Source: Bacillota bacterium (lineage in GTDB: Bacteria; Bacillota; Sulfobacillia; Sulfobacillales; JAIMBI01). Taken from it: a stretch of 35,219 nucleotides of DNA. The position numbers and the translations under genes were made by a program. Position 1 is the stretch's first letter. The number at the start of each line of letters is the position of its first letter. Below are positions 31,937 to 34,935 of this stretch, piece after piece. Location: assembly GCA_021846565.1 (NCBI GenBank), contig JAJZWS010000031.1, positions 1 through 35,219 on the forward strand. The letters run 5' to 3'. The notes under the pieces were generated by a model. The model searched no databases. It had not been told where the DNA came from and saw only the letters and a program-made list of their open reading frames with translations.

Positions 31937-32032
31937 CGGCGATCCCGGAGCCAGACTATCCAAGGGAACCGCGGGCCACCCCGCCTCCGTCCGCCGCGCA
32001 GGGCCTGCACTACACTGGGGGAGGACAAGCCG

Positions 32033-32974
32033 ATGCGCGTCGCATGGGGTGCTGTCGCGGTCGTGCTGGTGTTGGGGTTTGGCACCGTGGGACTTCACGT
32101 GATTTACGGCGCGTCGTGGCTGCAGTCGGTGTATGGCACCCTGGCGCTCATGACCACCGCGGGCGACAACCGCATCGTGCCGACCACGCCCGGACAAATC
32201 GTGTTTACGTTTATCCTGCTGGCGGTGGGGACGGCGCTCTGGATCTACTGGCTCTCGATCGTGGTGGCGGCGCTGTTGCGGGTAGACCTGACGAGAAAGG
32301 AGCGGCGTATGCAGGACCGGCTGAATCGCCTGGAAGGGCACTACGTGGTCGTGGGCGCTGGACGGGTCGGCCGCCGGGTGGCGCAGGAATTAACCCAGGG
32401 GGGCGCCGTGGTGGTGATCGTGGACACCGACGCCACCCGCATTGAGGCCGTGGAGGACGAGGCGGCCCTCGCAGTGACGCTGCCGGCCTACGACGTAGAA
32501 CATTTTCGCCGGGTGCGGCTCGACCGGGCGCACGGGCTGGCGTTGGCCCTCCCCGACGACGCGCAGAACTTATACGCCTATCTGGCGGCGCAGGACTCCA
32601 ACCCACACCTGCGTGTGGTGGCCCGCGCCCAAACGCAGGAAAGCGCCCATCACCTGCGGCGCTTGGGTGTCGGCGAGGTGGTCCTGCCCGATTTGGCTGG
32701 CGGCTACCGGATGGGGCGCATGCTGCTGAAGCCGCGGGCGCACGAACTGCTGCGCACCCTGACCGACGAAGCGGGGGTGGCGGTGCATGAGGTGGAGGTG
32801 GATGCGGAGCATCCTATGGCCAACCAACCCGTGCGCCATGTGCGCCAAGCGTTTGACGCGTCGTACACGCTACTGGGCTACTGGCGCGAGGGCACGACGC
32901 GGCTGGCACCCCCGGCCGACGACGTTCTCCACGTGGGCGATGTCCTCATCCTGCTGGAGCAGGAGTCCTCATGA
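32033..32974 (+). CDS. Two-helix ion channel with RCK (TrkA-N) domain, atypical filter
   Basis: A 313-residue protein with two hydrophobic helices flanking a pore loop (about residues 5-82), then a cytoplasmic RCK/TrkA-N domain beginning HYVVVGAGRVGRRVAQEL, with the nucleotide-binding GAGRVG at 108-113. A C-terminal TrkA-C-like part follows. This is the layout of bacterial K+ channels such as MthK. The filter differs sharply: where K+ channels have TTVGYGDI, this protein has TTAGDNRI (residues 41-48), so Tyr, Gly and Asp are replaced by Asp, Asn and Arg. Potassium selectivity is therefore doubtful. The ATG follows GGGGGAGGA. It is the first gene after rpoC. Confidence 0.82.
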   Translation: MRVAWGAVAVVLVLGFGTVGLHVIYGASWLQSVYGTLALMTTAGDNRIVPTTPGQIVFTFILLAVGTALWIYWLSIVVAALLRVDLTRKERRMQDRLNRLEGHYVVVGAGRVGRRVAQELTQGGAVVVIVDTDATRIEAVEDEAALAVTLPAYDVEHFRRVRLDRAHGLALALPDDAQNLYAYLAAQDSNPHLRVVARAQTQESAHHLRRLGVGEVVLPDLAGGYRMGRMLLKPRAHELLRTLTDEAGVAVHEVEVDAEHPMANQPVRHVRQAFDASYTLLGYWREGTTRLAPPADDVLHVGDVLILLEQESS

Positions 32975-33292: not shown

Positions 33293-33994
33293 ATGGAGCG
33301 CACTGAGATGGTCCGCACCGCCCCGAGGCCCAACCCCTGGTGGTGGGTGGGCATGGTGGGACCGGTGTTGTTCACCGTGAGTTGGGGGGCAGAAAGCTTC
33401 CTGGTGCCCGGCACCGATCCGTGGACGCAGTCCATCAGCTTTTTGGGGCAGGGCCCGTGGGGCTGGGTGCAAAATGACAACTTTGTGGTGTCGGGCCTGC
33501 TGGTGCTGGTGTTTGTGGGTGTCCTGTACGCCCAAAGCCCCGGTGGGCCGCCTCGGCTCAGGAGTTTGGCCCGGTGGCAGAGTCTGGCCGCGCTGGGCAT
33601 GGTGCTGGCGGGGTTGGTTCGGCAACGGGCCCGTTCCCCCGCGTTGCTGACCACCCCATTCGGGCCGATCACCTCGGCGGGCCTCGGGCACATTGCTGGT
33701 TCGGCGCTGGTTTACCTGGCCGTGGTCGGGGCCAGCGGGCTGGAAGGGTGGGCGGCAGCGCCCTGGTCAACTGAGGCGTGGCGCTGGTGGTCGCGCGTCA
33801 CCGCCACGGGTCTGGTGACCGGACTGGGGCTGTTTCTCATCACGGCAGCCGACGACGGCCCCAGTGGCTTGTGGGAGCGGGTCGTGGCCCTAATGGCCAG
33901 CGTGTGGATGGTCGCTTGGGTGCGTCGCACGCAGCGTATGACGCGCTGGGGCCCATCCCCGGGGTCAACCCCCCCAAGCGACCAATCCCGATGA
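33293..33994 (+). CDS. DUF998-like membrane protein
   Basis: A 233-residue protein with six or so hydrophobic helices. The segment PVLFTVSWGAESFLVPGTDP, followed by SISFLGQGPWGWVQNDNFVV, resembles the N-terminal part of DUF998 proteins, in which a short aromatic and Asn-rich loop lies between helices one and two. The function of that family is unknown. The ATG follows GGGGAGGGGG, and the upstream extension of the frame to 33053 is polar and rejected. It lies alone between the channel gene and the convergent VapC gene. Confidence 0.6.
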   Translation: MERTEMVRTAPRPNPWWWVGMVGPVLFTVSWGAESFLVPGTDPWTQSISFLGQGPWGWVQNDNFVVSGLLVLVFVGVLYAQSPGGPPRLRSLARWQSLAALGMVLAGLVRQRARSPALLTTPFGPITSAGLGHIAGSALVYLAVVGASGLEGWAAAPWSTEAWRWWSRVTATGLVTGLGLFLITAADDGPSGLWERVVALMASVWMVAWVRRTQRMTRWGPSPGSTPPSDQSR

Positions 33995-34057: not shown

Positions 34058-34507
34058 TCAGCGCGGCGCCGCCGTGGGATCCACGCCATCACCCGTCACA
34101 AGCAGTCCTGCCGTGATGGCCGCCTGTAAAAGCCGGTGGTCCCACACCACCATGGTGAGGGGCTCACGTTGCTGTGAGGCCAACCACATGGCGGAGGCCA
34201 GATGAATGGCATCCATGGCCCGCAGCGCCCCCCGATCGGCAGCCTCGCCAGCGTTCATCAGGATAAGCTCAACCGGAATCACGAACAGGTGGGACCAATC
34301 GGCGAGCAAGGCAGACTTGGCCCGTATATGCGCATCAGCGGACAAGAACCCTTCACGGGCGCGCCGGGCAAGCGCCGCGCGGACTTCGGCATACGCGATG
34401 GCACTGGTCGCCGAAAGAGCCGGCGGATTCACCAAGTGGTGCACCCGCTGGGAACCAGGCTCATCGATGTACAGTTTGACGAGGGCACTGCTGTCCAGAT
34501 ACAGCAT
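34058..34507 (-). CDS. vapC: VapC-type PIN-domain toxin
   Basis: A 149-residue PIN ribonuclease of the same subgroup as the toxin at 20140, starting MLYLDSSALVKLYIDEPGSQ. Metal-binding acids are Asp5, Glu41 (AYAEVRAAL), Asp99 (AMDAIHLASAM) and Asp123 (VWDHRL). Its ATG overlaps the antitoxin stop as TAATG, giving one shared base and tight translational coupling. Confidence 0.88.
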   Translation of the reverse strand: MLYLDSSALVKLYIDEPGSQRVHHLVNPPALSATSAIAYAEVRAALARRAREGFLSADAHIRAKSALLADWSHLFVIPVELILMNAGEAADRGALRAMDAIHLASAMWLASQQREPLTMVVWDHRLLQAAITAGLLVTGDGVDPTAAPR

Positions 34508-34782
34508 TAGCCCCGATCTTCCGAAATGGCGCGGGACAGAGCGTGCGCCTCATCCAAGTGGGCGGCCTCTTCCAGAGGCACACCCCGGGGAGCGCCTCCC
34601 TCCCAGGGAATGCCGTACTGGGCAGCCAGCTCCCGAGCGGCGGCCTGTGGGTCCGGTTTCAGCGGGCCCAGTCTCGCGACGGGTTGTCCTCGGTCTGTGA
34701 CCACGATGACGTCGCCGCTCCGCGCACGCGCAACGTATTGGCTCAGTTGCCGCTTTAAGAGGCGAATGCCCACGTGCGTCAT
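34507..34782 (-). CDS. Phd/YefM-type antitoxin
   Basis: A 91-residue protein with VGIRLLKRQLSQYVARARSG and VIVVTDRGQPVARLGP, matching the antitoxin at 19863. The toxin-binding tail ends HALSRAISEDRG. ATG at 34782 is six bases after GGAGGGG and is preferred to the GTG one codon upstream. A TATGAT (-10-like, plus-strand 34806-34811) lies in front of it. No operator palindrome as clear as that of the other Phd gene is seen. Confidence 0.86.
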   Translation of the reverse strand: MTHVGIRLLKRQLSQYVARARSGDVIVVTDRGQPVARLGPLKPDPQAAARELAAQYGIPWEGGAPRGVPLEEAAHLDEAHALSRAISEDRG

Positions 34783-34935
34783 CACTCACCCCTCCATGTG
34801 AGCTCATCATACCACAAATGTAGGCTCTGAGACGCGGCGCAAGCTTTGCCGCGTATGCTCGAGGGCTCGGCCGTGGGGTCTGCCGCCACGGTGGATGGCT
34901 CCTGAAGGCGGCTCTACGTCAACCCCGGTGGGATT

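Follow-up and report, generated by a model that had tools for sequence, protein, structure and literature searches.

A clade of single-RCK channels in the Sulfobacillus order with a CNG-like filter in place of the potassium signature

On a contig from a bacterium of the Sulfobacillus order (GenBank assembly GCA_021846565.1, contig JAJZWS010000031.1) lies a gene for a channel of the RCK-gated kind in which the K+-coordinating Tyr-Gly of the selectivity filter, and the Asp that follows them, have given way to Asp-Asn-Arg. The question raised by this locus is whether such a filter is genuine and, if so, what kind of pore it would form. The features of the gene are collected in Table 1, with positions counted in the window, that is, the whole stretch of 35,219 nucleotides that was analysed.

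Table 1. Features of the channel gene and its predicted product in the window
Feature	Positions	Strand	Basis or remark
ORF, 313 aa: two-helix pore and single RCK domain	32033..32974	+	ATG start at 32033
Shine-Dalgarno-like GGAGG	32020..32024	+	8 bases upstream of ATG; direct sequence reading
TM1, residues 2-25	32036..32107	+	AlphaFold2 model, Ion_trans_2 match
Pore helix, residues 29-40	32117..32152	+	AlphaFold2 model
Filter loop TTAGDNRIVP, residues 41-50 (relatives: TTVGYGDIVP)	32153..32182	+	D45 codon 32165-32167
TM2 and linker helix to RCK, residues 53-98	32189..32326	+	AlphaFold2 model
RCK N-lobe, TrkA_N, residues 104-219	32342..32689	+	Pfam E 4.6e-26, over cut-off
Nucleotide-binding motif GAGRVG (residues 108-113) and acidic D131 ending second strand	32354..32425	+	Conserved in orthologues
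RCK C-terminal subdomain, TrkA_C, residues 251-308	32783..32956	+	Pfam E 1.1e-5, just below curated cut-off

The two-helix plus RCK layout proposed in the initial annotation, which was made from the sequence alone, is borne out by Pfam, sequence and fold matches alike, and it is the layout of MthK, with two helices, a pore loop and an RCK domain. Ion_trans_2 is matched above cut-off at residues 9-81 of the window protein, and TrkA_C is matched at E <= 0.01 in all 17 members of the clade described below. MthK is the best solved match for the window protein alone (E 1.6e-17, residues 9-306), while a search with the family profile places GsuK at the top (E 1e-57) and MthK next. The AlphaFold2 monomer model (mean pLDDT 83, pTM 0.57) shows a loop at residues 41-52 between the pore helix and a long TM2, with a Rossmann-type domain after residue 98; its top Foldseek match is again MthK (E 2.8e-19), although the relative placing of the domains is unreliable because global TM-scores are just 0.4-0.5. 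In the RCK domain, G108, G110, G113 and D131 are invariant among the 17 orthologues, the motif reading GAGRVG or GAGQVG, and this GxGxxG...D pattern, a form of the GxGxxG...D/E motif that marks the GsuK and KtrA type, predicts an RCK domain of the nucleotide-binding kind. No promoter or terminator was found near the channel gene.

The filter codons read ACC ACC GCG GGC GAC AAC CGC ATC GTG CCG and yield TTAGDNRIVP. A profile-profile alignment against 20 canonical homologues (E 1.6e-59) is gap-free over residues 1-85, so that GDNR falls exactly on GYGD; the TT-x-G-x-x-x-I-x-P spacing and the replacement of Tyr-Gly and Asp, both pointed out in the initial annotation, thus hold, and a register shift concealing a normal filter is ruled out. 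The annotation had also named two observations that would undo its reading, a base-calling error and homologues with a normal filter aligned differently, and neither occurred: the normal-filter homologues align in the same register, and the homologue search that it had suggested recovered TTAGDNRIVP in two other assemblies of the window genus, whose filter codons differ synonymously. Although the window genome is a draft assembly of 134 contigs, another 14 genomes, including complete ones, have related non-GYG filters, and GYGD is absent from every full-length orthologue in the order, which together with the synonymous differences refutes a sequencing or assembly error and leaves it a negligible probability.

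The channel gene was detected in 19 of the 42 genomes of the order (E <= 1e-30). The set analysed further comprises the 17 full-length orthologues, including the window protein and a copy from the complete Sulfobacillus thermotolerans Kr1 chromosome (L036), and leaves out a split copy (G001) and a copy truncated ahead of the pore (G040). None of the 17 carries the K+ signature TxG(Y/F)GD, and they show eleven distinct filters: TTAGDNRIVP, TTVGTNAVQP, TTVGDARLVP, STVSDSRITP, STVSDPRITP, STVSDSRLSP, STVSDSRIHP, STVSDPGISP, STVGDAGIHP, STVGDAGISP and ATVGDSRIHP. T42 and P50 are retained in all members, and G66 and the filter spacing are likewise invariant. An acidic residue, D45, occupies the filter Tyr position in 15 of the 17, Thr replacing it in a single lineage to which the TTVGTNA-type filter is confined. 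The inner filter is TVG or TAG in nine members and TVS in the other eight, where Ser replaces Gly at position 44; the second filter Gly (position 46) and the Asp after it (position 47) are absent throughout, four members having Pro at 46 and eleven Arg at 47. The clade is thus marked most consistently by T42, a small Gly or Ser at 44, D45 and P50, and the Asn-Arg of the window protein is just one variant.

A survey of 300 genomes sampled from the phylum also turned up full-length homologues, with E values down to 3e-63, and every fetched homologue from outside the order with a readable pore has Gly-Tyr or Gly-Phe at positions 44-45; since this survey is a sample, the same filter may exist elsewhere. 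G46 and D47 are present in 21 of 21 canonical homologues, a selected set from which five unusual filters containing Gly-Tyr (L069, L073, L076, L078 and L081) were left out. Some RCK channels of the wider Bacillota family vary directly after Gly-Tyr, with GYGI (L069), GYGL (L073 and L076), GYTE (L078), GYGP (L081) and GYD(R), L075 being listed with them, and the filter's outer end seems to be a recurrent site of variation in the wider family. A micrarchaeotal homologue (L047:1190-1849, + strand) reads LGHGIQE-KF in the pore region, where its alignment is uncertain, and has no K+ filter. In the tree, the non-canonical members and one pore-less fragment of their lineage form a single branch with support 100/99. 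The simplest history suggested by this topology would be one in which the filter was rebuilt once, at the root of the clade, and then diversified; the stem of the clade is long and intermediate filter states were not seen.

Pairwise Nei-Gojobori estimates for three members of the window genus gave dN/dS values of 0.13-0.20 for the pore. Between L007 and L008 the pore shows one non-synonymous and 29 synonymous differences, and the stretch of pore helix and filter zero and ten, respectively (dS 0.65). Mean identity within the clade is 58% for the filter and 57% for the RCK lobes. The pore including the filter is under purifying selection and looks like a settled alternative filter rather than one in decay. 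A decaying pore was rejected on the low dN/dS values, though one split copy in the window genus is broken (L018:1501-2381, + strand): its filter reads TTAGDTRMVP, about 23 RCK residues are missing and the frame shifts there, and it is either a pseudogene or an assembly error.

Comparison with known channels places the RCK part and the filter in different company. Archaeal MthK shares the two helices, the pore loop and one RCK, but it carries a canonical TVGYGD filter and its RCK lacks an intact GxGxxG and is gated by Ca2+. GsuK, an RCK K+ channel of Geobacter, shares the GxGxxG...D nucleotide motif, but it has two RCKs per chain and a TVGFG filter and is weakly K+-selective; its motif binds AMP, ADP and NAD+, and the channel is activated by ADP and NAD+ (PMC3510474). 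For the filter, the initial annotation considered NaK (TVGDG) the nearest known departure from the K+ signature. NaK of Bacillus (TVGDGN) is indeed a prokaryotic two-helix pore in which Asp stands in for Tyr, but it retains the second Gly and lacks RCK gating; it is reported to have only the two inner sites and to gain a four-site K+ filter when changed to TVGYGD (PMC9822992). The clade goes further than NaK, as the annotation claimed, but its pattern is matched better by CNG channels (TIGETPPP) and NaK2CNG (TVGDTPP), in which the Tyr position is likewise acidic and the next residue is other than Gly. CNG and NaK2CNG are non-selective or blocked by Ca2+: the NaK2CNG filter has a contiguous set of three sites, S2-S4 (PMC12376597), and Ca2+ near 14 uM blocks a chimera carrying TIGETPPP (PMC5052707). 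CNG channels differ in their six-helix subunits, their gating by a cyclic-nucleotide domain and their retention of Gly 44, and the outer end of their filter consists of prolines where the clade has Arg or Gly and then Ile; Pfam scans of the window protein and the 17 members revealed no cyclic-nucleotide-binding domain, and the model has two helices.

The filters of NaKTs, NirBac and CASTOR depart from the K+ signature to the same or a greater degree. NaKTs of Tsukamurella (LPMGNGPLSP) is also a two-helix bacterial channel with a filter far from TVGYGD, but this filter is Pro-rich and known from one species; the channel is non-selective and Ca2+-activated, with Ca2+ held in the filter by the backbone, and the filter was not found in other channels (PMC5052707). 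The NirBac proteins also combine a prokaryotic K+-channel scaffold with a rebuilt P-loop, but they carry a Kir cytoplasmic domain instead of RCK; flux through NirBac1.1 and NirBac1.2 is non-selective, NirBac2.1 carries TTGTD, and the NirBac P-loops are mutually unrelated (PMC4607889). The plant CASTOR/POLLUX/DMI1 channels likewise have an RCK gating ring and a filter without TVGYG but with a key Asp; they differ in their four predicted helices, their Ca2+ selectivity and a soluble domain that is larger and contains two RCKs. The CASTOR filter, ADSGNHA, belongs to an RCK-gated, Ca2+-selective channel that is inactive as D265N (PMC6697748), and it may be likened only loosely to the clade filter, in that an acidic residue is followed by one other than Gly. 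Membership of the Castor family was rejected, since neither the window protein (at E <= 1) nor any of the 17 members (at E <= 0.01) matched the domain.

The second filter Gly has a left-handed backbone conformation that Pro cannot take. Given the CNG/NaK2CNG-like pattern and the occurrence of Pro46, the channel is expected to have lost the outer K+ sites, to discriminate weakly between Na+ and K+, and to bind divalents at the Asp ring. The loss of K+ selectivity, already thought likely in the initial annotation, is thus supported as a prediction from sequence, and the channel probably passes several kinds of cation; no feature was found that would support the anion conduction also proposed there. 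The reading that we favour, with a probability of about 0.55, is that of an RCK-gated cation channel with a filter rebuilt once into a poorly K+-selective pore of the CNG/NaK type, opened by nucleotide and with an Asp ring that would bind divalents. The protein would assemble as a tetramer with an RCK gating ring. The retained inner residues T42, V/A43 and G/S44 would form ion sites S4 and S3, while the outer Tyr-Gly-Asp would be exchanged for an Asp ring and residues poorly suited to the strained backbone of the outer sites, giving a short inner filter that opens to a wide outer vestibule and passes Na+ and K+ with little preference. The D45 ring may bind Ca2+ or other divalents, which would block the pore or permeate slowly, and the pore would open when an adenine nucleotide (NAD+, ADP or ATP) occupies the GAGRVG...D site in the RCK ring. 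Sulfobacillus is acidophilic, and one may speculate that at low outside pH D45 is partly protonated and divalent binding weaker. Counted against this reading are the replacement of D45 by Thr in one lineage, the presence of Ser44 in 8 of 17 members, unlike NaK and CNG, the positive charge that Arg47 puts near the outer mouth in 11 of 17, which CNG lacks, the want of conserved neighbour genes, and the uncertain domain placing in a monomer model.

The genome setting bears on the possible role of the channel. The window genome encodes a single further Ion_trans_2 protein (contig C20:3912-4520, - strand; L082, L085), whose filter, TVGYGDVVP, is normal and which is likewise linked to an RCK; that RCK lacks GxGxxG, making this second channel the reverse of the window channel. 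KdpA is encoded as well, and no TrkH-family match was found in the window genome. Because a canonical RCK channel and KdpA are present, the window channel need not be the K+ channel of the genome. Both channel types occur together in at least 11 genomes of the order; a replacement of the order's other RCK channel was rejected, that channel being of a distant type with TVGYGD. Within the window genus the channel gene comes after rpoC, and no conserved neighbour genes pointing to a role were found beyond that genus. A DUF998 membrane protein is encoded just downstream (33293-33994, + strand), and a toxin-antitoxin pair of the VapBC kind, a PIN-domain protein with an overlapping antitoxin of the Phd/YefM type, lies at 34058-34785 (- strand). 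Among plasmids, only distant relatives were found.

Several other accounts of the pore deserve consideration. A divalent-preferring channel resembling CASTOR, in which the D45 ring selects Ca2+, Mg2+ or Fe2+ and the RCK ring gates, draws on the Asp after a small filter residue, as in ADSGNHA (PMC6697748), and on the prevalence of D45 (15 of 17); we regard it as rather unlikely, since one lineage has Thr at this position, the likeness is limited to a short motif, the RCK being unrelated and without a Castor-family domain match, D45 may be protonated at low outside pH, and NirBac1.2, another rebuilt prokaryotic filter, is impermeable to Ca2+ (PMC4607889). The bolder form of this idea, an undescribed order-wide family turned divalent-conducting (Ca2+, Mg2+ or Fe2+) through the Asp ring, as a convergent bacterial counterpart of CASTOR in acid-living bacteria, we hold to be unlikely. 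Equally improbable is a non-conducting nucleotide sensor or membrane anchor in which the pore module is a mere scaffold: two filter glycines are gone or replaced, and such changes abolish conduction in many K+ channels, but purifying selection acts on pore and filter, with no non-synonymous change in the pore-helix and filter stretch between L007 and L008, and the clade shows no variation at T42, P50 or G66 or in the filter spacing.

Co-assembly with the TVGYGD RCK channel of the same genome, the window protein serving as a regulatory subunit that alters the pore as CNGB does with CNGA, would accord with the joint occurrence of the two types in at least 11 genomes and one of each in the window genome. 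It appears very unlikely, given that a very large distance separates the two types in the tree, that their genes are not neighbours in the genome, that a second match is missing from several genomes carrying the non-canonical gene, and that RCK rings of one chain type usually self-assemble. That the filter, however unusual, is still K+-selective seems just as improbable, despite the retained inner sites and the K+ channels among its relatives; the clade also lacks the second Gly, and in NaK exchange of Tyr-Gly-Asp for Asp-Gly-Asn leaves only two sites and no selectivity (PMC9822992).

In the open-access literature searched, on Sulfobacillus channels and on prokaryotic RCK channels with unusual filters, we found no earlier account of this family. 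Rebuilt prokaryotic filters with measured non-selective conduction (NaKTs, NirBac) and a non-K+ RCK-gated filter in CASTOR are already known; the novelty here is a bacterial channel that unites a single RCK with a CNG-like filter and is conserved throughout a clade. The earlier prokaryotic examples came from single or few strains, whereas here a whole clade is involved, and its eleven filters, which share a scaffold that can be aligned gap-free with canonical relatives, constitute a natural mutational series for the tolerance of a tetrameric filter, bearing on how K+ selectivity is given up. If the channel conducts, it would join an RCK nucleotide ring and a CNG-like filter within one bacterial protein that is small and amenable to structural studies, and it raises the question of why acid-living bacteria keep an apparently poorly selective cation pore.
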